From contig NZ_JAQNDK010000005.1 in NCBI RefSeq assembly GCF_028368935.1, forward strand, positions 496,001-560,000: 64,000 nucleotides of DNA, read 5' to 3'. Origin of the DNA: Sorangium aterium. GTDB lineage: Bacteria > Myxococcota_A > Polyangia > Polyangiales > Polyangiaceae. The notes beneath the pieces are model-generated. The model saw only the letters and a program-made list of their open reading frames with translations. It made no database searches and was not told where the DNA came from. A program made the position numbers and the translations under genes. Of the stretch, positions 12,766 to 63,375 are shown piece after piece (position 1 is the first letter of the stretch; each line of letters begins with the position of its first letter).

Positions 12766-15236
12766 TCAGCCCGCGAGGCTCCGGTGGCTGTCGAGCGCCG
12801 CGCGCTGATCCGCGAGATCGTCGCCGTAGACGGCCTCGATCGCCTCCGCCGCGAGGCGGTGCTGCCGCTCCGCCGTCTCCTTCGGCTGCATCCCGTACGC
12901 GGCGTCGCGGATCAGCACCGTGCAGAACTCGAAGCGGTGCTCCCCCATCCGCGACCAGATCCGCTGCGCCTCGCCGAAGCGCAGGTGATCCACGAGCGCC
13001 GAGGCGTCCGGGATCATCCGGGCGAGCACGCGCGTGTCGAACTCGCGCCCCAGCACCGCCGCGGAGATCACCGTCTGCCGCGTCCGCGGCTCGAGCCGCT
13101 CGAGCCGCGCGACGAGCAGGCTGTTCACGGTCCGCGGCGGCATGAACCGGCTCGATCGCGCGGCGTCGTGGGCCGACCCGTACCGCCCATCCTCCAGCCA
13201 GTACGCGAGGATCTCCTGCGCGAAGAACGGGTTCCCCCCCGCGGTCTGGCCGAGCAGCGACCCGAGCATCGTGGGGAGCGGACCGCCGAAGAACGGCTCC
13301 GCGAGCGCGAGCAGCCGCTCCGCCGGGAGCGGCGCGATCTCGATCCCCTGCGACGGGATGCCGGCGTCGAGCGGGATGCGGGCGTCCACCCCCTCCCCCG
13401 AGGACACCCCGGGCCGCGCCGAGCAGATCACCGCCAGCGGCAAGTCCCTGCAGGCGGCCGTGATCGCGCGCACCGCGTCGAGCGAGGTCGGATCGGCCCA
13501 CTGCGCGTCGTCGAGGTGCACCACCACCGGCTGCAGCGAGCTCTCCGCGACGAGCAGCGCGGCGAGCGCCCCGAGGGCCTCGTCGCGCCACCCGGCCTCG
13601 GTCGCGGCCTCCTGGCCGCGCAGCCTGAGCAGCCGCGCGAGCGCCTCGCGCGACCTGTCGATCCCGGCCCGCACCTCGGTCCAGCTCTCCGGCAGCCGCT
13701 CCAGGAGCAGCTCCAGCGCGAGATCGAGCCCCGCCTCCTTGGCGCGCTGGCCGAGCTCCGACGAGATCCCGAGGTACTCCTTGAGCGCGAACTCGAACGC
13801 GTAGAGCGGGGTCCTCAGCGTCTGATCGCAGCGGGCCTCGATCCACAGCAGCGGGCGCATGTCCATGAGCTGCGCGCGCTGGTGGCGGTAGCTGTGCACG
13901 AGGTAGCTCTTGCCGATGCCCGCCTCGCCGAGGATGTACACGACGCCCGCGGAGCGCCCGGCGAACAGGGGCTCGAGCGCCTGCGTGAGCCGCCCGAGCT
14001 CGACCTCGCGGCCGATGGGGCCGAGATCGTAGAACTCCTCCTGCACCGCGATGCGCCGCCGCTCGAGCGAGTAGACGAGGATCGGCAGGTCGAACCCGTC
14101 GAACCGGAAGATGTTCTCGGTCGACCACTGGTGGCTCGCCTCGCCCGCGCGGAACGCCCGCTCGTCCGCCCAGATCGACGACGGCGCCGCCTTCCGCGCG
14201 ATCTGCGCGGCGAGGTGGATGGCGCGGCCGACGCACGCGAACTCGCGGCGGCCCACGGCGCCGAAGAAGCCGACGAGGCAGCGCGCGCGGGTGACGCCCA
14301 CCGCGAGCCGGGGCACGCCGAGGCCGTTGCTCTTCAGCTCGAGCGCGAAGTCGAGGGCGCGATCGTGGTCGCTCTCGTGCGCGACGGGCGCGCCGAAGTA
14401 GAACTGCGCGCCGAGGCCGCGCTCCGTCACGGTCATGCCGGCGAACGTCGCGCCGTACATCGCCGAGATCTCGTGCAGCTGCTGGAGGAGCTCGGTCGGG
14501 CTCTCCACCCGATCGAGCGAGACGGACACCGTCGTCACCTCGCGGATCTCGCCCTCCGGCGCGAGATCGCCCGCACCCGGCGGCAGGAACGCCTCGACGT
14601 CCGCGTCCGTCGGGGCCGACGCGATCGTCAGCGAGGGGGGCCCGCTCAGGAGATCGGCCTCGTCGAGGTCCGCCACGCTCTCCCGCGCGCTGGCCGCGGG
14701 GAGCCGCTCGCGGAAGCTGCGATCGAGGTGGAGCTCGCTGTCGTCCACCCCGCGGTCGGTCGCCTGGCAGGCCTCCATCGCGGGGCCGTAGATCAGGAAG
14801 TACGCGCGATCCGGGGCGATGCGCACGATCGTCCAGTGGACCGTGCCCCAGGCGAGCCCGATCCTGAACGGCGTCTGCGCGCCCCCGGCGCCCAGCGAGC
14901 GCCGCGCCGCGAGCTCCAGCAGGCTGCGCCGCATCGCGAGCGCCGCGCTGCGCGCGTGCCGGGTGACGTTGCGCCCCGGCCGATCGGGGAACAGCGCGGT
15001 GAACCCGCCGCCGGACGACAGCGTCGCGACGAACCCGCCCGACTGGTGCACGGCCTCGAACAGCGGATCGAAGAACGGCGCAGCGCCTCCGGATCGAGCG
15101 CCTGGCGCGCGATCATCTGCTCGGCGAGCTCCACGATCGCCGGCAGCGAGACGTGCAGGACAGCCGCGTCGATCGCGCCCGCGTATTGCCCTTCGGCGTC
15201 CTGTTCGAGGATGAAGTCCGGGACGAGCGGATTCAT
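12766..15236 (-). pseudogene. Cyclase-homology/AAA ATPase regulator, frameshifted
   Basis: The N-terminal frame starts at ATG 15236 (MNPLVPDFILEQDAEGQ) and breaks after DPEALRR near 15070-15082, where one base appears lost. The rest reads on in another frame to 12766. The joined product, about 822 residues, has two class III cyclase-like domains and then a STAND/AAA ATPase with Walker A ILGEAGIGKSYLV and Walker B VVVHLDDAQWAD. The first cyclase-like domain lacks the metal-binding Asp in its first strand. Relatives continue into a long TPR region. Here the protein stops just after the ATPase (RAALDSHRSLAG), so it also looks 3'-truncated. A decayed nucleotide-signalling regulator is likely; a sequencing error at the shift is possible. 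Confidence 0.7.
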
Positions 15237-15414: not shown

Positions 15415-15482
15415 GTCGGTCCCGTCGGTTTCGGCAGCTTCGTCGGTTTCGTCCGTTTCGTCGGTTCCGTCAGTTCCGTCAG
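15415..15482. repeat. 9-bp tandem repeat at the 3' end of the VIT/vWA gene
   Basis: On the minus strand about 7.5 units of the form CYGACGAAA run from 15482 to 15415. The first two units read CTGACGGAA, so the stop codon (TGA) of the large gene is supplied by the repeat itself and recurs in frame in the second unit. Confidence 0.8.
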
Positions 15483-18400
15483 AACGGCGGAGCCGACAGG
15501 CCGTCGACCGGCACCAGGCGGGAGGTGAAGAAGACGCGCACCGTGCCGAGCTCGAGGCGCGCGCCCTCGAGCGTGAAGGGCACCTTGCGGGTCTCTCCCG
15601 CGAGGCGCAGGGTCAGCTCGCCGCGCACGGGGCCCGGCGCGCTGGCCCCGGGGGTGGAGGCGCCGGCGTCGTCCACGGCCGACGCGCGCGCGATCTCGAC
15701 GATGTAGCTCCCCTTGGGGAGGCTCCGCAGCGCGAGGGACTCCGACCGCGTGCTCGTCGCGTCGCGCGAGCGCACACCCACCGACGGGAGGGTCGCGCCC
15801 ATCCATGAGACGCGCCGCCCCTGCGCGTCGATGAGGGAGAGGTCGAGGTCGGCGCCGCCGGTCCACTCGGCGCTGAGCCGCACGTCGCCGGGCAGGTCGG
15901 CGGCCGGCGCCGCGTCCGGCTGCGCGAGCCGCCGGTCGATCTCCGCGCGGACGGCGGAGGTCGCGTCGAGGCGCAGCTGGCTCGCGAGCTCGCTCATGCC
16001 GCCCTCGCCGGCGCACCGGATCGCGGCGGCGACGAGCTTCGCGTCGGCGGGCGCGAGGTCCGCGAGCGCCACCTGGTGCTGGCACGCGAACGCGGGCCGC
16101 CCCGCGGCGTCCCAGAGCTCGGCGAGCCGCGTCTGGGTGGCCCGGTCGCCGGGGCGCACGTCGGCGAGGCCGCCGAGGATGCGCGCGGCGCGGTCGCGCT
16201 GGCCCTGCCGCGCCGCGAGGTCGGCGCGGGCGATGAGCGCGTCGGGATCGAGCGCGTCGCGCCCGCTCCAGCGCGCGGTCAGCTCCTGGGCCTCGCCGAG
16301 GCGGCCGGTCGTTGCGTAGAGCGCGTAGAGGCCCACCGTCCTGTCGCGGCTGTCCGGGGCCGCCGCGAGCGCCGCCTCGGCGGCCGCGGTCTTCGCGGCG
16401 CTCTCGGGCGCGAGCGTGTTCGTCGCGTCGAAGCTCACCTTGCGATCGAACACCCGGCGCATCGGGATCATCCGCCGCGGCCGCGGGCGCGACCACTCCT
16501 CGGCGGCGACGAGGTCGTCGCCGCGCGATCTCCGGGCGCGGTCGTCCAGCGGCGGCGCCGGCTTCGGCTCCGCGGGCGCGGCGGCCGTCGGCGCCGGCGG
16601 GGGCGCCGGCATCTCGGCGTCGAGCGGGCCCGAGAGGGGATCGAACGACTTGTCGAACCGGCGCTGCGGCTTGGCGGGCGACGCCGGGCGGGCGCCGGCC
16701 GACGTGCGAGACTCCGCCTTCGCGGCCGGCGCGGCGTCCGGCCAGCCGGAGCCGCCGCCGCCCCTGCCGCTGCCCGACAGGCCAAGGCCCGCCCCGAGCG
16801 CGTCGCCCTTCTCCTCGGCGCCCTCGTCCGCCGCGTCGGGCTCCTCCCCCTCGGCGCTCGCGCTCACGCGCTCGGCCTGCTCCTCGCCCGTGAACGCGGA
16901 GGCGATGCCGCCTCGATCGAGGCCGAACGCCTTGAACATCGCCTCGCTCTCCAGGACGAGCAGCGAGGTGAACCGGCTCGCCACGGAGAAGCGCCGCGAC
17001 AGCTCGATGATGGCGGGCTTCTGCGCGTCGCCGCCGCTCTCCTCGAGCTCCGCGATCTTCGCCGCGGCGTAGAGGCGCGGGACGAAGGCGTTGCCCGCGC
17101 CGGTCGTGGCGACGATGTTGACGGGGTAGGTCTGCTCGAAGCGCTCGCCCGAGACGCGGCCGCGGACGCGGATCGCGCCGGTGACGTCGGCCCCGGAGCT
17201 CATCCGGGCCACGACGAGCGCCTCGCCGCCGGCGCGGATCGGGTCGAGCCGCGCCGGCGTGACCTGGGTGAGGCCGGGGGGCAGCTCGATCTCGGGATCG
17301 CGCAGCGCGAGGCCGTACGCCGCGCCGAGGACCGACTGCGCCGCGCTCGCGACCTTCTGGCCGGGCACGTAGGGGACCATCACCCCGCCGCCGCCCCGCG
17401 CGAGCGCCCTGAGCGACGTGGTGTCCGCGTCGCTCCCGAGCGCGACCGCGACCACGGCGGCGGCGCCGTCCGCGGGGATCGCGCCGCGCACCGCGGCCTC
17501 GATGTGGGCGGGGCGCGTCGGGCCGACCGAGGGCGTGCCGTCGCCGAGGTAGATGATCCGGAGCTCCTTGCCGTCGAGCGGGCCGGCGGCCGCGCGCGCC
17601 GCGATCATCGCCGCGGCGAGATCGCTGCCGCCGTCGGGCTCGATGCCGCCGAGGAAGCGCTCGACCTCGCCCGCCGAGGCGGCGCCGGGGGCCATGGGGC
17701 GCGCGGCGCCGCCCTGGCCGGCGTCGCCGAGCGAGCGGCAGAGGGTGTCGCACGCGAGCACGACGACCTCGTCGCGCCGGTCCATCTCGCGGACGAGCGA
17801 CGAGGCGAGCCGCGTCGCGCGGGCGAACCGCTCGCCGACCATGGATCGGCTCGAGTCGACGACGATCGCGTGGCGCCGCGAGGTCGACGCCTGCCACCGC
17901 GGGAGCCGGGGCCGGATCGCGATCGCGACGTACGGCGACGTGTCGCTCGCGATGGCCTGCGCCGCGGCGAGGGAGGCCTCGTGCTCCGCGCCGTCGCGCT
18001 TCGACGCGCCGGCCGCGCCGCGCCACGGCTGAGATGCCGCGGGTGGCGTGGCTGGCGGCGGGGCGGGGGGCATCCGGTAGGCCCAGGCGGTGACGGGCCG
18101 GTCGCGATCGGGGAGCGCGTACTCGACCGTGAGGTCGCCGGCCGGCGTGAAGCCGCGGGCCTCCAGCGTGCGGCGGTCGGCCGCGCCGTCCGCGAGGGCG
18201 GCGGCGAGCTCGTAGCCGCGCGTCGCGACGCCGAACTCCCGGTCGTGGCCGAGCACCTGCACGTCGAGCGAGAAGTCGCCGATGTTCGTCGTGCCGCTCT
18301 GGTCGTGCGCGAGCGGGTAGGTGAAGCGCCGGACGCCGCCGGCCTGCTCGACGAGCTGCGTGTAGGTGAGCACGACGCGCCGCGAGCCGCGCTTCGGGAT

Positions 18401-20227
18401 GGGGAAGATGCGCAGCTCGAACCGGCCGCCCCGCTGCCACTCGAGCAGCGCGGGGTCGCGCCACGGGCCGGGGACCCAGATGATCTCCTCGCGCGGCTTG
18501 GGCGCCTTGGGGGCGGCGTTCTGGATGACGCCGCGCCAGATCGCGGCCCCCCGATCGCGATCGACGAACGCGCCCTCGACCAGCTTGCCGTCCACCTCGA
18601 GCGCGAGCCGCTCGATCTGCGCGCCCGGCGGGAGCGGGAACCGGAAGATGCCCTCGAGCTCCTCGTCGGTGTCGTTGGCGAAGGTCTCGTCGATCTCCGT
18701 CCTGGCGACGACGTCGACGATCCGCACCTTGACGGCGTGCCTGGCGAGCCGGACGGCCCGCTCTTTTTCCTGCGTCGCGCCCGGCTTGCGCGCCCTGAGC
18801 TCGCCGAGGCCGCGGAGCGCCGGGGCGTCGGCCTCCTCGGCGGAGCGGTCGCTCCACTCGAGCGTGTCGGCGAGCGACGTCGCGCTCGCGACCTCCGGCG
18901 CGGCGCCCTTCGCGAGCGTCGCCTCCTCGCCGGCGCGCACCTCGACGGGCTCGCCGCGCTCGCCGGTGACGCGCACGGCGCCGCGGGCCACCTCGACCGA
19001 GGCGCGCGCGGCGCTCGCGGTGATCGCGAGCTTGGTCCCGAGCACCTCGACCTGGCCGTGCGGCACCTCGATGCGCGCGGGCGGCGCGCCGGGGGCCGGG
19101 GTGACGTCGAGGACGACGGCGCCCTCGTCGACGCGTGCGCGGCGGCCGTCGCCTGCGATCCACACGCGGGAGCCGCGGTCGATGGCGAGCGCGGAGCCGT
19201 CCGCGAGCGACAGGTGGGCGCGCGTCCGCGCGTCGGTGCGCAGGGTCGCGCCCTCCGGGAGCGCGGCGCCCGCGGCGAGCGGCGCGCAGGCGCCCGCGGC
19301 GTCGCACGCCTCGAGGCCGCCCGACTTGTCGGCCGACGCGCGCGACACCGAGGCGATCTTGCCGGACCATGGCGCCCCGGCCGCCGCGGCGACGGACGGC
19401 GCCGTTGTTTCGCCGCCGCGCCGCAGAGCAACCCCGACCGTTACCGCCGCCGCCGCGGCCAGGGCGGCGGCGGCGAAGGCCGAGCGCCGCCCGAAGGCCG
19501 TGCGGCGCGCCGCCGGCGCGGTTCGTTCCGGGATCGTGGAGCGCGGTCCGCCGGTGCGCGCCTCGGCCGCGCCGGATCGCGCTCCGGAAGTGTCGGATCG
19601 CGGCCTGAGCGTAGGGGAACGCCACGCGGGCGTGTCGGATCGCTGCTCGGCGATGTCCGATCGCCCTTCGGCGATGTCCGATCGCTGCTCGGCGATGTTC
19701 GATCGCTGCTCGGCGATGTTCGATCGCTGCTCGGCGATGTCGGATCGCTGCTCGGCGATGTCCGATCGCCCTTCGGCGATGTCGGATCGCTGCTCGTCGA
19801 TACCGGATCGTCCTTCGGCGATGTCGGGTCGAGCGTCGGCCCTGTCCGATCGTTGCTCGGCGATGTCCGATCGCCCTTCGGCGATGTCGGATCGCCCCTC
19901 GGTCACGCCGGAGCGCGCGCCTGTGGCGCCGTGTTGCTCCTCGGCCGCCACCTTCAGGATCGCGCCGCTCGTCGCGCCCTCCGAGGGGCGCGCCGCTTCG
20001 AGCCGCCGGAGCAGCGCCTCGGTGAAGCCGTCCGCCGGCCGGAAGTCCGCGCCGGCCGCCGCGGCCACCTCCGCGGCGCGCGCTGCGTCGTGGCGGAGGT
20101 CGCGGCACGCGTCGCAGCCGGCGATGTGCTCGTACAGCGCAGGCCGCGCCGTCCCGTCGAGCACCTCCGCGAGCTGCTCCTCGACCTCGCCGCAAAGCCC
20201 AACCGAACCTGTCCCTGTCGCGCCCAT
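15479..20227 (-). CDS. Anti-sigma-like membrane protein with FecR, VIT, vWA and DUF2135-like domains
   Basis: A 1582-residue protein in this order. First a zinc-finger anti-sigma motif (His34, Cys38, Cys41: HIAGCDAC); a heptapeptide repeat RSDIAEQ/G (about 106-200); one membrane helix (about 248-268, Ala/Val-rich). Then a FecR-like domain (about 330-445, VDEGAVVLDVTP); a VIT domain (about 490-620, FRFPLPPGAQIERLALEVDG); a vWA domain (from about 783) with MIDAS-like DSSRS. A Pro/Lys-rich linker, TPR-like helices and a DUF2135/YfaP-like beta domain (about 1450-1513) complete it. It begins 5 bases after the upstream ECF sigma gene, so it is the likely cognate anti-sigma with an extracytoplasmic sensor. 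The fusion is inferred to sense surface or envelope cues. Confidence 0.85.
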   Translation of the reverse strand: MGATGTGSVGLCGEVEEQLAEVLDGTARPALYEHIAGCDACRDLRHDAARAAEVAAAAGADFRPADGFTEALLRRLEAARPSEGATSGAILKVAAEEQHGATGARSGVTEGRSDIAEGRSDIAEQRSDRADARPDIAEGRSGIDEQRSDIAEGRSDIAEQRSDIAEQRSNIAEQRSNIAEQRSDIAEGRSDIAEQRSDTPAWRSPTLRPRSDTSGARSGAAEARTGGPRSTIPERTAPAARRTAFGRRSAFAAAALAAAAAVTVGVALRRGGETTAPSVAAAAGAPWSGKIASVSRASADKSGGLEACDAAGACAPLAAGAALPEGATLRTDARTRAHLSLADGSALAIDRGSRVWIAGDGRRARVDEGAVVLDVTPAPGAPPARIEVPHGQVEVLGTKLAITASAARASVEVARGAVRVTGERGEPVEVRAGEEATLAKGAAPEVASATSLADTLEWSDRSAEEADAPALRGLGELRARKPGATQEKERAVRLARHAVKVRIVDVVARTEIDETFANDTDEELEGIFRFPLPPGAQIERLALEVDGKLVEGAFVDRDRGAAIWRGVIQNAAPKAPKPREEIIWVPGPWRDPALLEWQRGGRFELRIFPIPKRGSRRVVLTYTQLVEQAGGVRRFTYPLAHDQSGTTNIGDFSLDVQVLGHDREFGVATRGYELAAALADGAADRRTLEARGFTPAGDLTVEYALPDRDRPVTAWAYRMPPAPPPATPPAASQPWRGAAGASKRDGAEHEASLAAAQAIASDTSPYVAIAIRPRLPRWQASTSRRHAIVVDSSRSMVGERFARATRLASSLVREMDRRDEVVVLACDTLCRSLGDAGQGGAARPMAPGAASAGEVERFLGGIEPDGGSDLAAAMIAARAAAGPLDGKELRIIYLGDGTPSVGPTRPAHIEAAVRGAIPADGAAAVVAVALGSDADTTSLRALARGGGGVMVPYVPGQKVASAAQSVLGAAYGLALRDPEIELPPGLTQVTPARLDPIRAGGEALVVARMSSGADVTGAIRVRGRVSGERFEQTYPVNIVATTGAGNAFVPRLYAAAKIAELEESGGDAQKPAIIELSRRFSVASRFTSLLVLESEAMFKAFGLDRGGIASAFTGEEQAERVSASAEGEEPDAADEGAEEKGDALGAGLGLSGSGRGGGGSGWPDAAPAAKAESRTSAGARPASPAKPQRRFDKSFDPLSGPLDAEMPAPPPAPTAAAPAEPKPAPPLDDRARRSRGDDLVAAEEWSRPRPRRMIPMRRVFDRKVSFDATNTLAPESAAKTAAAEAALAAAPDSRDRTVGLYALYATTGRLGEAQELTARWSGRDALDPDALIARADLAARQGQRDRAARILGGLADVRPGDRATQTRLAELWDAAGRPAFACQHQVALADLAPADAKLVAAAIRCAGEGGMSELASQLRLDATSAVRAEIDRRLAQPDAAPAADLPGDVRLSAEWTGGADLDLSLIDAQGRRVSWMGATLPSVGVRSRDATSTRSESLALRSLPKGSYIVEIARASAVDDAGASTPGASAPGPVRGELTLRLAGETRKVPFTLEGARLELGTVRVFFTSRLVPVDGLSAPPF
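19638..19910 (-). repeat. 21-bp tandem repeat (13 copies) encoding RSDIAE(Q/G)
   Basis: GATCG-start units fall at 19638, 19659, 19680 and so on, every 21 bases to 19890, with one GGTC variant at 19827. The translated heptad RSDIAEQ or RSDIAEG lies on the cytoplasmic side, between the anti-sigma zinc finger and the membrane helix. The units alternate between two versions (CTGCTC and CCTTC), suggesting duplication in blocks. Confidence 0.92.
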
Positions 20228-20232
20228 CGCCC

Positions 20233-20832
20233 TCACTCCTCGCCCAGATCGGCCCTGAGCCGCGAAAGCGCGCGGCTCACCCGCTTCCGCGCCGCCGCCT
20301 CGTCGATCCCGCACGCGATGGCCACCTCCTTGAAGGAGAGGCCCGCCTCGAAGCGCAGCACCACCGCCTCGCGCTCGCTCGGCTTCAGCCGCGAGAGCGC
20401 GGCGCGGGCGCGCTCGGCCCGCTCGCGCTCCGCCGCGAGCTCGCTCGCGTCGGGCCGCGGCCGGGTGTCGTGGACGAGGCGCAGCCGCGCCTCGCGCCGC
20501 GCCCTGAGCTCCGTGTGCCGCCCGCAGAGGCGCCGCGCGATCCCGAAGAGCCAGGCCCGCACGCTCCCCTCGGCGCGGTACTGCGGGAACGCATCGAACG
20601 CCGCGAGCAGCGTCTCCTGCACCAGCTCCTCGCTCTCGGCCTGCGAGCCCGTGAACGCCATGCACAGCCGGCCCAGCGGCATGGCGTAGGCCTTCGCACA
20701 CCGCGACAGCGCTTCCCGGAAGTCGCCTGTCCCGATCAGCCCCTCGATCGCGCGCGCCTCGTCGGCCCGCGCGTCGCCCTCCGACCCAACGAGCGCTAAC
20801 CCCGCTGCCATCGCTGCCTCATCGCCAGCCAT
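20233..20832 (-). CDS. ECF RNA polymerase sigma factor
   Basis: A 199-residue sigma-70 family protein of ECF type, which directs RNA polymerase to alternative promoters. Region 2 contains MAFTGSQAESEELVQETLLAAF and VRAWLFGIARRLCGRH. Region 4 has LSRLKPSEREAVVLRFEAGL, the helix-turn-helix FKEVAIACGIDEAAARKRVS, and a short end. The ATG at 20832 follows a G-rich stretch. Its stop lies 5 bases before the start of the large zinc-finger membrane protein, the expected anti-sigma factor. It is divergent from the HtrA-like gene, sharing a 158-base control region with a T8 tract at 20863-20870. Confidence 0.9.
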   Translation of the reverse strand: MAGDEAAMAAGLALVGSEGDARADEARAIEGLIGTGDFREALSRCAKAYAMPLGRLCMAFTGSQAESEELVQETLLAAFDAFPQYRAEGSVRAWLFGIARRLCGRHTELRARREARLRLVHDTRPRPDASELAAERERAERARAALSRLKPSEREAVVLRFEAGLSFKEVAIACGIDEAAARKRVSRALSRLRADLGEE

Positions 20833-20990
20833 GTGCCCCCGTCCCCCGAGTTCGTGACCGGATTTTTTTTCGCCCCCGCCCCCGGCGGACTCCGGTGCCC
20901 GATCCCACAGTACAGGGCGGTCCGGCCTTTGCCTTTTGCAATGCGATCCGCGCCGCCGCAGAATCGGCCGTCGCCTCAGGAGCCGCGCTT

Positions 20991-22274
20991 ATGAACGAGA
21001 CAAGCCCGCCTGGTGTCACAAAGGCCGCCGCGCCCCGAGGCGCGGCGCCGAGCGATCCCGTTGACAGGTCGCGTGTGAAGCGATGGAGACGGTCGCTGGC
21101 GCTCGCCGCCGCCGTGTCCGCCGCCGCAGCGCTCGCCGCCCCCGCGGCGCTCGCGCAGGGCGCGCCGGGCGAGGCGCAGGTTCAGGGGGAAGGTGAAGCC
21201 CCGCCGGCCGGCAAGCGGGCGGTGCTCCCGACCCGGGTCAGCGCGGGCGGGAAGGAGAAGAAGGCGGCCGCCGCCGAGCCGAAGGGGGGCCCGGCCGAGA
21301 AGGACAAGGCGGAGCCGCCGGTGGAGGAGCGCGCCGCGCGCGGCGTGGTCGTCATCGAGCGCGGCGGGCAGGTCCTCGGCCTCGGCGCGGCGCTCGCTGG
21401 CGACGGGCGCATCCTGACGGCGCTCTCGCCGCTCGGCGCGGGCAACGACCTCACGGCGCGCCTCGCCGACGGGACCACCGTGCGGGTGAAGCTCGGCCAC
21501 CACGACCGCGTGTGGGATCTCGCGCTGCTCGTGCCGCAGACCGGCAAGTGGGCCGAGGGGCTCACCGCCTCGTCGCGCGATCCGGTGCGGCCGGACGCGC
21601 AGATCCGCTCGTTCTCGGCGGCGCGCGGCAAGGTCGCGGCCACCTCGCTCGTGCTGCGATCGCACCGGACGCTGATCGGCGGCGACGACCGGCCGCTCGA
21701 GCGCGCGATCGAGCTCGGCTCGCGCGTCTCGCCGCTCGATCTGGGCGCGCCCATCATCGACGAGGACGGCCGCGTGGTCGCGATCCTGGGCCGCGGCTGC
21801 GCCCCGAACGAGGGCAAGCCGTGCACGCCCGTCGCGTTCGGCGTGCCGATCAGCGCGGTCAGGGCGTTCCTTCGCGCGGTGCCGCCGACGGCCGTGCCGC
21901 CTGCGGCGTGGCTCGGGATCCAGGGCGTCAGCGAGGCGGCGCCGGTCGCCAAGGGGGTCCGGGTCACCGTGGTGCACCCCGAGAGCCCTGCGGACGAGGC
22001 CCGCTTGACGGGCGGCGATCGCGCGGAGAGCGACATGATCCTCGCCGTCGACGGCGTGCCCGTCACGAGCCCCGACGCGCTCTCCGACGCGATCCGGACG
22101 CACGCGGTCGGCGAGAAGGTCCCGCTCACTTTGCTGAGCCGCGGGAAGTACCGGCAGGTCACGGTCGTGCTCCGCGCTGCCCCCGATCCGTCGGCCGCCG
22201 CGGCGAAGCGGCCGGAGGCCGAGCTCCCGCCGCCGAGCTCGGGCGGCAAGGCGACCGAGGAGTACCGCAAGTAG
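20991..22274 (+). CDS. HtrA-like PDZ protein, catalytic residues lost
   Basis: The 427-residue protein has an N-terminal membrane or signal segment (RRSLALAAAVSAAAALAAPA), a trypsin-like HtrA fold (about 110-285) and a C-terminal PDZ domain (about 300-395; AWLGIQGVSEAAPVAKGVRV, ESDMILAVDGVPV). Aligned by eye with HtrA, the Asp is kept (VWDLALLV). The His position reads LTALSPL and the Ser loop reads LDLGAPII instead of GNSGGP, so peptidase activity is not expected. It may be a peptide-binding envelope sensor or chaperone. ATG 20991 is chosen for AGGAG at 20979-20983; an upstream ATG at 20895 lacks a site. Confidence 0.82.
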   Translation: MNETSPPGVTKAAAPRGAAPSDPVDRSRVKRWRRSLALAAAVSAAAALAAPAALAQGAPGEAQVQGEGEAPPAGKRAVLPTRVSAGGKEKKAAAAEPKGGPAEKDKAEPPVEERAARGVVVIERGGQVLGLGAALAGDGRILTALSPLGAGNDLTARLADGTTVRVKLGHHDRVWDLALLVPQTGKWAEGLTASSRDPVRPDAQIRSFSAARGKVAATSLVLRSHRTLIGGDDRPLERAIELGSRVSPLDLGAPIIDEDGRVVAILGRGCAPNEGKPCTPVAFGVPISAVRAFLRAVPPTAVPPAAWLGIQGVSEAAPVAKGVRVTVVHPESPADEARLTGGDRAESDMILAVDGVPVTSPDALSDAIRTHAVGEKVPLTLLSRGKYRQVTVVLRAAPDPSAAAAKRPEAELPPPSSGGKATEEYRK

Positions 22275-22448: not shown

Positions 22449-23222
22449 GTGTCCCAAACGTTTCGAATCGAAGTGGCCGGCGAGACGAACGTCGGGCGCA
22501 AGCGCAACCACAACGAGGACAACTTCGGCATCATGGTCGAGTACGGCCTCTTCATGGTCGCCGATGGGATGGGGGGGCATGCGTCGGGCGAGGTCGCGTC
22601 GAAGATGGCCGTCGACGCGATGCAGGACTTCTTCGCCCAGACGCAGGACGATCCGGAGCGGACCTGGCCTTACAAGATGGACCGGTCCAAGGGCTACGAA
22701 GAGAACCGGCTGATCACGGGGATCAAGCTCGCCAACCTGCGGATCTACGAGACCGCGCAGCGCGAGGCGAAGAAGCGGGGCATGGGGACGACGTTCGTCG
22801 GCATCTTCACGGCGAACGACGGCGTGTACGTCGCCCACGTCGGCGACAGCCGGGTCTACCGCTTCCGCGAGGGCCGGCTCGAGATGCTCACCGAGGACCA
22901 CTCGCTCCTCAACGACTACATCAAGATGAAGCGGCTCACGCCCGAGGAGATCGCGAACTTCCCGCACAAGAACGTGATCGTGCGCGCGCTCGGGATGAAG
23001 GACACGGTCAAGGTCGACACCCGCTTCGAGGTGCCGCAGCTGAACGACACGTACATCCTCTGCTCCGACGGGCTCTCCGGCCCGGTGAGCGATCTGGAGA
23101 TGACCCAGATCCTGACGGAGCATCAGGACATCCAGGTTGCGACGGCCAAGATGATCGAGCGCGCCAACGAGAACGGCGGCCCGGACAACGTGACGTGCGT
23201 CCTCGTTCGTTGGACTCAGTGA
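22449..23222 (+). CDS. PP2C-type Ser/Thr protein phosphatase
   Basis: The 257-residue protein has the metal-dependent phosphatase motifs in order: RNHNEDNF (motif 1 with the metal Asp), FMVADGMGGHASG, GTTFVGIF, HVGDSRVYRFREG, ILCSDGLSGPVSD and GGPDNVT. It dephosphorylates Ser/Thr residues and is the usual opponent of Hanks-type kinases such as the one at 34253-35788, though they are not linked here. It is a soluble single-domain form without a membrane tail. The start is GTG 22449. A 60-base compound stem-loop lies in its leader, and the gene ends in front of the GACCAC hexamer array. Confidence 0.93.
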   Translation: MSQTFRIEVAGETNVGRKRNHNEDNFGIMVEYGLFMVADGMGGHASGEVASKMAVDAMQDFFAQTQDDPERTWPYKMDRSKGYEENRLITGIKLANLRIYETAQREAKKRGMGTTFVGIFTANDGVYVAHVGDSRVYRFREGRLEMLTEDHSLLNDYIKMKRLTPEEIANFPHKNVIVRALGMKDTVKVDTRFEVPQLNDTYILCSDGLSGPVSDLEMTQILTEHQDIQVATAKMIERANENGGPDNVTCVLVRWTQ

Positions 23223-23487: not shown

Positions 23488-23931
23488 TCAGGGCAGGGCG
23501 CCGCCGCTCCAGGGGATGAGGACGAGGAAGACGAAGGCGATGAGGGCGAGCATGAAGAGGCTCGTCATCAGGTAGGTCGAGCGCGGCGAACGCGCGGTGC
23601 TCCAGCCGTCGCCGTAAAACTTCCCCCGCGAGCGCACCCGGATCCGGCGCTGCACGCCGCGGAGAAGGCTCGGCGGCGCCGCGGGCGGCGGACGCATCGC
23701 GCCTCGGACCAGCTCGCGCAGATCGAGCTCGTCGACGAGCGGCAACGAGCCTTCCTCGGGGAGGTCGCCTTCCTCGGGGAAGTCATCGTCTTCGGGGAGA
23801 TCGTCTCGGGGCGCGGCGGCGGCGGGCGGGCGCTCCACGGGGGGAGCCGTGGGACGGCTGCCGCTCTCCGCGCCCGAAGCGGCCGGCTCATCGGATTGCC
23901 CCGTGCGCCTCGGGTCGTCCGCTTCGCTCAT
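23488..23931 (-). CDS. Small membrane protein coupled to ECF sigma factor
   Basis: Not recognised as a family. The 147 residues are an acidic disordered N-terminal part (DDLPEDDDFPEEGDLPEEGS), a short helix (LVDELDLRELVRGAM), a basic patch (RGVQRRIRVRSRGKFYGDGW) and one C-terminal membrane helix (LMTSLFMLALIAFVFLVLIP). ATG 23931 overlaps the stop of the sigma gene (ATGA). Coupling to an ECF sigma factor, small size and a single helix suggest an anti-sigma or sigma-retaining role; this is inference from position only, as no zinc-finger motif is present. Confidence 0.7.
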   Translation of the reverse strand: MSEADDPRRTGQSDEPAASGAESGSRPTAPPVERPPAAAAPRDDLPEDDDFPEEGDLPEEGSLPLVDELDLRELVRGAMRPPPAAPPSLLRGVQRRIRVRSRGKFYGDGWSTARSPRSTYLMTSLFMLALIAFVFLVLIPWSGGALP

Positions 23932-24722
23932 TTCCCGCCTCTCACCTTCTCGCCCATCATCTTCTCGACAAGCGCGCGGAGCTGCCCGCGCGCGCGATGG
24001 ATCCGGCTCTTCACGGTCCCGTCCGGCAAACCCGTCACCGAGGCGATTTCTTCGTAGGACATGTCCTCCACGTCGCGAAGGATGAGCGCCTCCCGGAACT
24101 CGGGATCGAGCTGGCCGATGGCGCGCTTCACGACCGCCTCGAGCTGCATCCCCTCCACCAGCTCGTCCGGGCGGCTCACGTCGCCGACGCTCACGCCCTT
24201 GGCCGCGGACAGCGGCACCCGCTCGGCCATGGCGTCGACGTCGTCCTGGGCGCCGGCGTGCCGCCGCGAGAGGTACTTCGTCCGGTTCTTGCAGAGATTC
24301 ACGGCGATTCGATAGATCCACGTCGAGAGCTTCGATTCGCCGCGGAACTGATCGATGGCCTTGAAGACCTGCACGAAGACTTCCTGGGATACGTCCTCGG
24401 CCTCGTCACGCCGGCCGAGCATGCGGTAAACGAGCGCGAACACGCGGCGCTCGTACATGATCACGAGCTCGTTGAACGCGCTCTCGTCCCGCGCGACGAG
24501 CCGCGCGATGAACTGCGCCTCGCCCGCCTCGAGCGGCGCCGCCGACGCGCGCTCGAGCTCCGCGCCCGCATGGGTCGGCGCGCCGCGTCCGCGGTCCGCA
24601 TCACCATGGGCCGGCGCGCCGCGTCCGCGGGCCGCATCACCATGGGCCGGCGCGCCGCGTCCGCGGTCCGCATCTACATGGGTCGGGGCTCCGCGTCCGC
24701 GGGCCCCTTCATCGCTCGCCAC
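23928..24722 (-). CDS. RpoE-type ECF sigma factor with N-terminal repeat
   Basis: An ECF sigma factor of about 264 residues. Region 2 (ARDESAFNELVIMYERRVFA; EDVSQEVFVQVFKAIDQFRG; STWIYRIAVNLCKNR) and region 4 (LDPEFREALILRDVEDMSYE; EIASVTGLPDGTVKSRIHRA) are strongly conserved. The N-terminal 65 residues are a 12-residue repeat (RGRGAPAHGDAD) that no sigma factor needs. GTG 24722 is preferred because GGAGG lies 10 bases upstream; TTG 24827 is the longest alternative, with no visible site. The coupled downstream gene encodes a single-helix membrane protein. Confidence 0.88.
   Translation of the reverse strand: MASDEGARGRGAPTHVDADRGRGAPAHGDAARGRGAPAHGDADRGRGAPTHAGAELERASAAPLEAGEAQFIARLVARDESAFNELVIMYERRVFALVYRMLGRRDEAEDVSQEVFVQVFKAIDQFRGESKLSTWIYRIAVNLCKNRTKYLSRRHAGAQDDVDAMAERVPLSAAKGVSVGDVSRPDELVEGMQLEAVVKRAIGQLDPEFREALILRDVEDMSYEEIASVTGLPDGTVKSRIHRARGQLRALVEKMMGEKVRGGK
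24570..24713 (-). repeat. 36-bp tandem repeat in the sigma factor N-terminus
   Basis: Four copies about 36 bases apart, marked on the plus strand by CATGGG or CATGGGC at 24569, 24605, 24641 and 24677, each with GGCGCGCCGCGTCCGCGG. They encode RGRGAP(A/T)HGDA(A/D). The second and third copies are almost identical, so the expansion is recent. Confidence 0.9.
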
Positions 24723-24947
24723 GCCGTCCGGTCCTCCAGGAGCCAGGGGCTCGCGCACGCCGCGCGGCAGGCGCGGAGCCCTCGGTGAGACCACGGTAAA
24801 CAACCCCGGCTCGACCGCGCCAGACAATAGCGAGCGGATGACGGCGCAGGACGCTCCCGTGAGGCGGTGCGACCTCGCCGGAGGCGCTCCCGCCCGCGCG
24901 ATGACGATCGGCCGCCATGACCCTCCTCAGAGGGCGCGGGTGCTCGA

Positions 24948-60933: not shown

Positions 60934-63375
60934 GTGAAAAGCAGCGATTTCATCAGCTCGTCCGCTGCGCTGGGGGCGGCGGCGTTGATCCTCGCCGGCT
61001 GCGGCGCAAACGAAGGCGACGGCCTTGGCAAAGCACGACTGGCTGTCGGACAGGAACTCGCCTCGGAGGCGGAGCCCAACGGGACGGCGTTGCAGGCGAA
61101 CGCCATCTCCAGCGACACGGTCGTGCGCGCCAACCTCGTTCCGGACGGCGATGCGGATCTCTTCTCGTTCCAGGCGCCCGCCGGGAGCCGTGTCTACGCG
61201 GCCGTGATGTCCGCGTCTTCCACCGCGTCGCAGGACGCCGACCTCGACATCCTCGATCAGGACGGCACAACAGTGCTGGAGACCGACGTCTTCAACGGGT
61301 CGTTCGGGGGCTTGTCGCCGAGCATCGCGGGCACGCCCCTCGCGACCGCAGGAACGTACTACGCGCGCGTGCGCGTGCCCTCCGCGACCGTCCAGGTGCG
61401 CCCCTACGACCTCCACCTCAAGGTGCAGAGCGGCGTGCCCATAGCGGAGGTCGAGCCGAACGACACGACACCGCAGGCGCTCCCCGCGACCGGCTGGATC
61501 GCTGGCACGCACAGCGGCGCGACCGATGTCGACAGCTACTCGCTCTCCCTCAACGCCGGCGACACCCTCTTCGCGAGCCTCGATCAGGACCCGACGCGCG
61601 ACCTCACGCAGTTCGCCGCCGCGCTCGCGATCGGCCCCTTCGGGTCCGGGTTCGACATCCAGGTGGACAATCAAGCCGGGCCTGTCGAGACACCGTACTC
61701 GGACGCCATCTTCGCGACGGTGAAATCAGCGGGTACCTACAGGGTGACGGTGACGGGCTCGGTGACGGCGGGTGATTACGGGCTCAGCGTGAGCGTGCAT
61801 CCTGCGGCGCCGAGCGTGGGGTGCACCACGTACGACAGCGCGAACGTGCCCAGGGACATCCTCTTCGGCGCGCCCACGACGTCGTTCATCGACGTCCCGG
61901 GCGCGCCCCGTATCGGTGACCTGAACGTGAGCGTCCGGCTCAGCCATCCCATGCCTCCCGACGTGGACGTGTACCTCGTCTCGCCGGCCGGCAACACCAA
62001 CGGTCTATTCACCGATATCGGCAGCAGGACCTACCCGAACCTCGAACTCACGATCGACGACGAGGCTGCGTTCCCGGCCGGACACTTCACCCTGCTGAAC
62101 GGCATGATGGTGCAGCCGGAGCTCGACTACCGCTTGCACTGGTTCGATGGGGAGAACGCTGGAGGCCGGTGGACGCTCACGCTCCGGGACGATACGGACA
62201 ACTCGAACAACCTCGGCGTGTTGTCCGCGTGGAGCCTCACGATCTGCGACGCGCCGATCCCCGCGCCCTCGTGCTCTAGCGGCGACGCCCCGGCCGCCCT
62301 GCTGTCAGCGGACTTCGAGGGCGGCGCGCAGGGTTTCACGCACGCCGGCACGGCCGACGCGTGGGCGGTCGGCACACCGAGCGCCGCGCCGATCGCGACG
62401 TGCAACGGCGGGACGCAATGCTGGAAGACGAACCTCTCCGGCGTGTACAACGCGAGCTCGAATCAGGATCTCGTCTCCCCGCCGATCGACCTGTCCGGGG
62501 TGCAGGCGCCCATCCAGCTCCGCTGGGCGATGAAGTACCAGCTCGACGACGCGTCCTCGGATTACGGATGGGTGGAGATCCGAGAGGTCGGGGGTGCGAA
62601 CGCCAGACGCCTCTGGGAGTTCCTCGACGCATCGATGACCACGACCGTCGGTAGCTCCAACCTGGTGCTCCAGGAGAGCGCGGGATGGGGCACGCACTAC
62701 GCCGACATCAGCGGATACGCCGGAAAGCGAGTCGAGGTGGTATTCCACCTCGACAGCGACGCGATCGTCCAGCTCGCCGGTCTCGCGATCGACGACGTGT
62801 CGGTCCTGGGCTGCCCGCGCAGCGGCACGGGCGAAGGCGGCGGTACCGGCGGCGGAAGCACCACGGGTGAGAGCGGCGCGACGGGCAGCGGCGGTGGCGG
62901 CGCGGGGACTGGCGGCGCCACGGCGACCGGAGGCGCCGTCACGAGCGGCGCAAGCACCACGGGTGAAGGCGGCGCGACGGGCAGCGGCGGTGGCGGCGCA
63001 GGGGTCGGCGGCGCCGCGGCGGGCAGCGGCGGCAGCACCACGGGCGAAGGCGGCGCGACCGGCAGCGGCGCCGGCGGCGCGGCGACCGGCGGGGCCACGG
63101 CGGTCAGCGGCGCCGGCACGAGCGGCGGCAGCACCACGGGCGAAGGCGGCGCGACGGGCAGCGGCGCCGGCGGCGCGGGGACCGGCACCCCCGCGTCGGG
63201 CACCGGCGCGGGCGCCAGCTCGAACGGCGACCCATCCGCCAGCAGCGATACGACGGGCGGCTGCGGGTGCCGCTTCGTGGGGGGTGACGAGCCCCCGTGG
63301 CCATGGCCCGCGGCGCTCGCGCTCATCGCGCTGGTCAGAATGCGTTGTAAGCGGTTGCGTTCGCAAAGCTCCTGA
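60934..63375 (+). CDS. P-domain surface lipoprotein with MYXO-CTERM-like tail
   Basis: An 813-residue surface protein: lipobox LILAGC (residues 18-23), two pre-peptidase C-terminal-like beta domains (ASEAEPNGTALQANAISSDT; IAEVEPNDTTPQALPATGWI) and a proprotein-convertase P domain (about 310-440; INDLNVSV-type start, RWTLTLRDDTDNSNNLG). A MAM/jelly-roll-like domain (about 455-630) and a Gly/Thr/Ser repeat linker follow, then GGCGCRFVGG with one helix and a basic end. That tail is the MYXO-CTERM pattern. No protease catalytic domain is present. The start is GTG 60934 behind GGAAGGGAA. Confidence 0.8.
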   Translation: MKSSDFISSSAALGAAALILAGCGANEGDGLGKARLAVGQELASEAEPNGTALQANAISSDTVVRANLVPDGDADLFSFQAPAGSRVYAAVMSASSTASQDADLDILDQDGTTVLETDVFNGSFGGLSPSIAGTPLATAGTYYARVRVPSATVQVRPYDLHLKVQSGVPIAEVEPNDTTPQALPATGWIAGTHSGATDVDSYSLSLNAGDTLFASLDQDPTRDLTQFAAALAIGPFGSGFDIQVDNQAGPVETPYSDAIFATVKSAGTYRVTVTGSVTAGDYGLSVSVHPAAPSVGCTTYDSANVPRDILFGAPTTSFIDVPGAPRIGDLNVSVRLSHPMPPDVDVYLVSPAGNTNGLFTDIGSRTYPNLELTIDDEAAFPAGHFTLLNGMMVQPELDYRLHWFDGENAGGRWTLTLRDDTDNSNNLGVLSAWSLTICDAPIPAPSCSSGDAPAALLSADFEGGAQGFTHAGTADAWAVGTPSAAPIATCNGGTQCWKTNLSGVYNASSNQDLVSPPIDLSGVQAPIQLRWAMKYQLDDASSDYGWVEIREVGGANARRLWEFLDASMTTTVGSSNLVLQESAGWGTHYADISGYAGKRVEVVFHLDSDAIVQLAGLAIDDVSVLGCPRSGTGEGGGTGGGSTTGESGATGSGGGGAGTGGATATGGAVTSGASTTGEGGATGSGGGGAGVGGAAAGSGGSTTGEGGATGSGAGGAATGGATAVSGAGTSGGSTTGEGGATGSGAGGAGTGTPASGTGAGASSNGDPSASSDTTGGCGCRFVGGDEPPWPWPAALALIALVRMRCKRLRSQSS
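62851..63180 (+). repeat. Gly/Thr/Ser repeat linker
   Basis: AGCACCACGGG recurs at about 62857, 62953, 63033 and 63130, each followed by GGCGCGACGGGCAGCGGC-like sequence. The translation is STTGEGGATGSG with variable Gly/Ala spacers. It forms the stalk between the folded domains and the MYXO-CTERM-like tail. Confidence 0.75.

Follow-up and report, generated by a model that had tools for sequence, protein, structure and literature searches.

Within a stretch of 64,000 nucleotides of the Sorangium aterium genome (contig NZ_JAQNDK010000005.1, positions 496,001 to 560,000; the whole stretch is called here the window), the gene of an extracytoplasmic function (ECF) sigma factor is followed by that of a 1582-residue protein, P0001, which we consider likely to be a membrane anti-sigma factor that is released by proteolysis and holds in the periplasm a metal-binding sensor of the ITIH type, ITIH being the inter-alpha-inhibitor heavy chain, a human blood protein. 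This reading starts from the gene pair, the order of the domains, the residues of the metal site, the pattern of cysteines and a promoter element, from which we infer the inhibition of the sigma factor, the topology, the proteolysis, the use of the promoter by the sigma factor and the ligand. In P0001 an ECF anti-sigma factor of the zinc type meets a VIT-vWA head that resembles inter-alpha-inhibitors, each of them a well-studied module. Several Myxococcota families conserve the whole unit together with its promoter element and metal site, which makes it a tractable receptor with regard to ligand, self-cleavage and regulon. The open-licence PMC literature yielded no paper on a zinc-type ECF anti-sigma factor joined to an ITIH-like VIT-vWA part, a prior mention being possible.

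The sigma factor and its probable anti-sigma partner

Both open reading frames (ORFs) lie on the minus strand, as do all parts of the pair and of its promoter described below, in a host genome of 13.5 Mb and 7 contigs. The sigma factor comes first (20233-20832, or 20233-20811 with the start codon proposed below) and P0001 (15479-20227) follows after a gap of 5 nt. In the 199-residue sigma factor, Pfam recognises Sigma70_r2 (4.1e-12, residues 49-106) and Sigma70_r4_2 (1.6e-12, residues 141-192), so that sigma2 and sigma4 domains alone, with a short linker between them, define it as a member of the ECF class (group 4). P0001 begins with a zinc-type domain and a variable linker, after which come one helix, a FecR domain (Pfam 5.2e-14), a VIT domain (1.6e-14), a vWA domain (VWA_3, 2.2e-7), a TPR region and a beta domain. 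A sequence-only reading of the window had already advanced an ECF sigma gene adjoined, after 5 nt, by an anti-sigma-like protein with a single helix and then FecR, VIT and vWA domains, and this layout is confirmed by the ORF coordinates, the Pfam matches, a hydropathy scan and profile matches to RsiW and RsrA.

The anti-sigma domain itself (residues 1-85, 19973-20227) is hardly visible to single-sequence searches, as zf-HC2 stays below threshold in P0001 (0.086) and reaches E<=0.1 in 5 of 25 family members. When the N-terminal family profile (39 rows) was compared with solved structures, it matched the anti-sigma factors RsiW (5wuq, 1.4e-4) and RsrA (5frf, 0.0028). The domain contains an Hx3Cx2C zinc motif at residues 34-41 (H34, C38 and C41; 20105-20128), with C12 as the presumed fourth ligand, and a pair of residues, R42 and D43, that is invariant in 59 of 59 proteins. 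These and all other counts over 59 sequences refer to P0001 and the 58 complete proteins among 80 named loci, which were taken from the 119 relatives found by scanning GTDB species genomes with a profile (A1) made of P0001 and 24 of 28 paired loci; the sigma profile (A2) was made of P0002, the sigma factor of the window, and all 28.

The pair is widely kept in these relatives, whose titles, in all 80, name Myxococcota, a group within that phylum, or metagenome-assembled genomes (MAGs) of deltaproteobacteria. In 64 of the 80 loci a sigma match is found on the same strand no more than 2.5 kb upstream, a figure that includes two weak cases, a fusion (L127) and a locus with a 65-bit match and a 325-nt gap (L140); in 12 of the 16 loci without a sigma match, the match to the profile sits no farther than 1.9 kb from the end of its contig. 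Closer to the host, a 623-residue piece of P0001 used as query hit 38 of 60 genomes from the family, and the sigma gene stands immediately 5' of the P0001 homologue in 28 of 37 relatives' loci inspected at length. Such recurrence of the pair in the same order goes beyond chance. A 623-residue query run as a single protein over 112 genomes of the phylum at 1e-20 gave 5 matches, the host genome included, all within the own family, a query too strict for the diverged members that the GTDB profile scan found. In the fusion, from a Polyangiaceae MAG (L127, 7248-12014), sigma region 4 is joined in frame to the anti-sigma-FecR-VIT-vWA protein and sigma2 is nearly gone, which, if it is no assembly error of the MAG, would be independent support for a joint function of both parts. 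Altogether, the sequences support the view of the sigma factor and P0001 as a cognate pair of ECF sigma factor and class I (zinc-type) anti-sigma factor.

The zinc motif is less constant than R42-D43. Hx3Cx2C occurs in 49 of the 59 proteins, accompanied by a cysteine near position 12 in 48 and alone in one (L150), while motif and cysteine are both absent from 10, which have no cysteine at all before the helix and keep both R42-D43 and the adjacent sigma gene. On a tree of the VIT-vWA region, where the sequence nearest to P0001 is that of Sorangium cellulosum So0157-2, the loss of the ligands amounts to three changes (the starred branches force at least two), comprising one clade of eight, two of them labelled Sandaracinus, plus L096 and L108. 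In two of the cysteine-less domains (L113 and L142), positions 12, 34 and 38 are histidines, which perhaps form an all-histidine site that still binds metal. Mixed groups, with zinc and non-zinc anti-sigma factors side by side, have been described (PMC7406223). Since the ligands are lost jointly in some members while R42-D43 stay, the zinc is here probably structural instead of sensory. The absence of the zinc finger in orthologues had been named in the sequence-only reading as something that would refute its proposal; as regards the cysteine ligands it partly applies, in 10 of 59, but the R42-D43 pair and the sigma gene are kept in those same cases.

Between the anti-sigma domain and the helix lies a predicted cytoplasmic linker (residues 86-245, 19493-19972), rich in alanine and proline and very variable among the 59 proteins (6 to 210 residues, median 69). 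In P0001 its coding sequence contains a 21-bp tandem repeat of about 13 copies (19629-19902), which yields RSDIAEQ-like heptads; repeated RSDIAE is found among the 59 only in P0001 and in the protein of S. cellulosum So ce26 (L077).

The predicted periplasmic head

A simple hydropathy scan of P0001 gave one hydrophobic segment near residue 250, where the maximum lies, and none above 1.8 after residue 400; the corresponding transmembrane helix spans about residues 249-268 (19424-19483). Three cysteines, presumed to be zinc ligands, precede this helix and six follow it. Throughout the family, the number of cysteines before the helix is three in 42 proteins, none in 10, four in five, five in one and two in one, and the number after it is even in 58 of 59. 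Moreover, the pairs 826/830, in the vWA domain, and 1382/1405, in the TPR region, are invariant (59/59), and the pair 308/314 is jointly kept in 37 and jointly lost in 22. To judge from secondary-structure positions in the models, not from distances, the members of each pair would lie either on neighbouring strands or on two helices that face each other within a single hairpin. The single helix and the cysteines, which mostly split by side, point to an N-terminus in the cytoplasm and to a FecR-VIT-vWA-TPR-beta head that would sit in the oxidising periplasm.

The FecR domain (residues 328-419, 18971-19246) is recognised by Pfam in 25 of 25 members, and the corresponding part of the head profile, and that part only, matches 6ovk (7.3e-9), deposited as 'Siderophore-interacting protein', which we take to be PupR; E. 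coli FecR is matched too. Since Gly-Thr belongs to the general FecR consensus and is retained in L118 and L151, two proteins that have no anti-sigma domain (a third, L006, lacks the motif), the Gly397-Thr398 motif of P0001 (19034-19039) is to be read as a lead and not as a proof of cleavage. When E. coli FecR is placed on the family profile, this motif falls exactly on G181-T182, the site of FecR self-cleavage (as given in a passage of PMC8144685), and it is kept in 57 of 59 proteins, the exceptions being one NT and one GS. No STN domain was found by Pfam at E<=0.1 in the 25 members, where a VIT domain (496-622 in P0001) comes after FecR instead.

The VIT domain (18362-18742) is likewise matched by Pfam in 25 of 25 members and the vWA domain (residues 787-949, 17381-17869) by VWA_3 in 23 of 25. 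The latter has the residues of a metal site (D791, S793, S795, S868 and D896), and the full site, DxSxS followed by S/T and D, is preserved in 56 of 59 proteins and altered in three (L115, L116 and L120). A profile of residues 280-1130 matches ITIH4 (1.6e-29), ITIH1 (8.7e-21) and also PARP4. The structural model of this region, with a predicted local distance difference test score (pLDDT) of 87.3 and a predicted template modelling score (pTM) of 0.88, superposes its VIT-vWA part on ITIH1 (6fpy) with a Z of 21.7 over 515 residues at a root-mean-square deviation of 6.6; a bacterial vWA protein, 4fx5, ties with ITIH1 in this comparison (Z 22.3 over 319). Profile and model agree in a predicted VIT-vWA unit with the arrangement found in ITIH proteins. 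Separate structural matches were obtained neither for FecR nor for the C-terminal beta domain, the match lists of the models being filled by vWA and TPR proteins.

Behind the vWA domain, the C-terminus is modelled with a pLDDT of 92.8 as a helical repeat, a TPR superhelix of about residues 1272-1437 (15917-16414), and a beta domain of about residues 1448-1582 (15482-15886). TPR models of Pfam match 38 of 40 aligned rows, and the beta domain is weakly PPC-like in 9 of 40. The sequence-only reading had seen a DUF2135-like domain here, a proposal that we reject in favour of TPR plus beta domain: DUF2135 (PF09906) has no match in P0001, in the 25 members or in the neighbours, nor in the whole genome at E<=1, and it is absent as well among the first 25 of 49 families for the 40 C-terminal rows.

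Conservation is uneven along the pair. Mean column identity is 53% both in the sigma alignment (A2) and in the FecR-VIT-vWA alignment (A3, the window and 45 of the 58 proteins), versus 37% in alignments A4 and A5, made of the window and 39 and 38 hand-picked rows of those 45. With FecR-VIT-vWA on a par with the sigma factor in conservation, a fixed endogenous ligand fits better than a variable target.

Predicted promoter, proposed mechanism and rival explanations

Upstream of the sigma gene lies a predicted ECF promoter with the -35-like element GGTCACGAA (20851-20859) and a -10-like CAC (20833-20835). The pattern GTCAC-N18-[AC]AC is present in front of the sigma gene in 54 of the 64 paired loci (46 distinct sites), whereas the remaining sequence of the same loci would lead one to expect 0.58; it was derived from 14 sequences, and without the loci used for its derivation the count is 46 of 56. 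The consensus reads GGTCAC(G/A)AA, 15 nt and CAC, which corresponds to positions 20859-20833 of the window. As a conserved element precedes the sigma gene, the pair is probably autoregulated from it, and autoregulation is common among ECF factors (about 55% predicted), the FecI-like ones being named as exceptions in a passage of PMC8103513. The element also speaks for a corrected start codon of the sigma factor. In 43 of the 46 distinct sites a G stands as the third base past CAC (CACnTG), so that the element spans the ATG at 20832 assigned in the sequence-only reading. In the sigma alignment, all 13 rows that start farther upstream have an internal methionine aligned with 20811, where the remaining 16 rows begin by our choice of start. 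Because the upstream ATG overlaps the element and the methionine column is conserved, the true start is probably at 20811, 21 nt downstream.

Strict scans with the promoter pattern gave 5 sites in the host genome versus 1 for the reversed pattern, namely that of the sigma gene itself, three in coding sequence and an ambiguous one (L155). In 10 relatives there were 70 sites versus 8, and the operon's own site was returned by position in 8 of the 10. Among the 30 of these 70 sites that were viewed with their flanks, 21 look coding and nine do not, two of the nine being sigma promoters; a second recurrent target was not recognised in the 11 genomes at this depth of viewing. Real targets may account for the surplus over the reversed pattern, or else coding bias, as GTC-ACG-AAG is an ordinary run of codons.

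With the membrane anti-sigma factor as the likely function of P0001, the system may be pictured as follows. At rest, residues 1-85 would tether the sigma factor to the inner membrane, which is spanned by one helix, and about 1300 residues would stand in the periplasm, comprising FecR, an ITIH-like VIT-vWA with intact metal site, TPR and beta parts. This head would read a conserved periplasmic ligand or a state of assembly, and the change would alter the access of periplasmic proteases, so that the anti-sigma factor would be cut outside and within the membrane. Once free, the sigma factor would use the GTCAC-N18-[AC]AC promoter to transcribe its own operon. Site-2-protease families have matches in the host genome, and likewise in 14 of 14 control genomes, so they are not diagnostic. 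A bolder version, which we regard as rather doubtful, has P0001 cleaving itself at Gly397-Thr398 while folding, as FecR and FoxR do, and the ITIH-like head remaining held non-covalently on the membrane stub until metal-dependent binding or force strips it off and bares the stub to proteases. If so, P0001 would be, in its logic, a bacterial counterpart of the self-cleaved adhesion receptors, one whose output runs straight to a sigma factor and which several Myxococcota families conserve.

Several observations weigh against a membrane anti-sigma factor with a periplasmic sensor. In the search with the N-terminal profile, the ranks between RsiW and RsrA are taken by two designed helical proteins, whose matches rest on several weak stretches of which none passes alone. 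Additional cysteines precede the helix in 6 of 59 proteins, and the promoter element is missing from 10 of the 64 paired loci. Four loci (L111, L128, L134 and L151) have ample upstream sequence, yet no adjoining sigma match; L134 retains the anti-sigma domain and L128 carries an Hx3Cx2C motif that the anti-sigma profile does not recognise. Finally, the host genome encodes three other VIT proteins and, in one paralogous locus (L006, G000:C7:243000-259000), the helix-FecR-VIT-vWA arrangement with TPR-like parts occurs where neither an anti-sigma domain, by profile, nor an adjoining sigma gene was found. As the proteins of L006, L111, L118 and L151, with the same helix-FecR-VIT-vWA order, all give no anti-sigma profile match, the head can exist without sigma output. 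This makes room for a head that has a job of its own, as an envelope scaffold or protease trap, and whose anti-sigma domain would do no more than tie the amount or processing of the head to its own operon, the promoter of which is the sole recurrent site recognised. We hold this to be unlikely, with a sigma match upstream in 64 of 80 loci and R42-D43 in 59 of 59 proteins.

VIT-vWA folds also have non-adhesive roles. The sequence-only reading had gone directly from these domains to a transcriptional response to adhesion or surface contact, with the vWA metal site binding an external ligand. The intact metal site in 56 of 59 proteins and the occurrence of a vWA domain in a myxobacterial pilus protein, PilY1.3 (as described in a passage of PMC9109919), would suit such a receptor; however, the head comes after a single helix and is placed in the periplasm by its even cysteines, and its FecR-VIT-vWA part is strongly conserved over several Myxococcota families, unlike a variable adhesin. 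Adhesion sensing by P0001, for which the head would have to reach out of the cell, is unproven and topologically awkward, and we regard it as improbable. The FecR domain with its aligned Gly-Thr site recalls instead FecI/FecR cell-surface signalling with a TonB-dependent receptor encoded elsewhere. Searching with E. coli FecA by tblastn, we found no such receptor in the window or in the 80 loci at 1e-3, a search that may pass over divergent or remote ones. Moreover, the N-terminus is of the zinc type, VIT-vWA and not the STN domain of PupR (PMC7186176) follows FecR, and the pair has its own conserved promoter element, whereas FecI-like sigma factors are the exceptions to autoregulation in the passage of PMC8103513 mentioned above, all of which leaves this explanation highly improbable.

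A further candidate is an envelope-stress sensor in which a neighbour, encoded on the opposite strand at 20895-22274 (+), serves as a relay, either shielding the anti-sigma factor or exposing it. This divergent protein joins Trypsin_2 and PDZ domains in the order of HtrA/DegS and appears to be a pseudoprotease, since the catalytic His and Ser positions, which we located from HtrA motifs and judged by eye, are replaced in 16 of 16 aligned sequences. By tblastn at 1e-5 an orthologue lies beside the pair in 15 of 80 loci, but none was found near it in 36 of the 51 loci that have the sigma gene and at least 2 kb upstream. An aromatic C-terminus of P0001 as ligand of the PDZ domain was considered and dropped, because the last residue is aromatic in only 21 of 59 anti-sigma proteins, uncorrelated with the presence of the neighbour. 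A PDZ partner is a possibility of low probability as the basis of the whole system.

Neighbouring genes and known systems

Next after the PDZ gene comes a PP2C-type phosphatase (22449-23219, +), which is found in 13 of 80 loci at 74-97% identity. Farther on, an ORF judged by eye to be a second ECF-like sigma factor (23928-24827, -) carries in its N-terminal extension a 36-bp tandem repeat of 3.7 copies (24569-24702). On the other side, downstream of P0001, an AAA_16 protein is encoded at 12766-15236 (-). Two ORFs here, 14793-15236 and 12766-15051, share an overlap in different reading frames, perhaps as parts of a single gene with a frameshift; clustering of ORFs 3' of the anti-sigma gene is clouded by spurious GC-rich frames. 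Near the end of the window, at 62849-63208, there is a 177-bp direct repeat in two copies with shorter repeats nested in it.

Among known systems, P0001 resembles the class I anti-sigma proteins of the RsiW, RsrA, ChrR and RskA type in its Hx3Cx2C motif with an upstream cysteine, in the adjoining ECF gene and in the mixture of zinc and non-zinc members, and differs from them in the huge FecR-VIT-vWA-TPR-beta part after the helix and in the long variable linker before it. With the regulators FecR, FoxR and PupR it shares the single-pass architecture, a FecR domain after the helix and the Gly-Thr motif of FecR and FoxR; unlike these, it has VIT-vWA in the place of the STN domain of PupR, a zinc-type domain, a conserved promoter element and no adjoining FecA match. 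The best NCBIfam match is TIGR03788, of marine proteobacterial sortase target proteins, and it falls in the vWA region with 80 bits, far under the cut-off of 551.65. As for ITIH1 and ITIH4, P0001 has VIT and vWA in the same predicted arrangement and a metal site, but it is a bacterial protein anchored to the membrane, with an anti-sigma domain and FecR before this unit and TPR after it.

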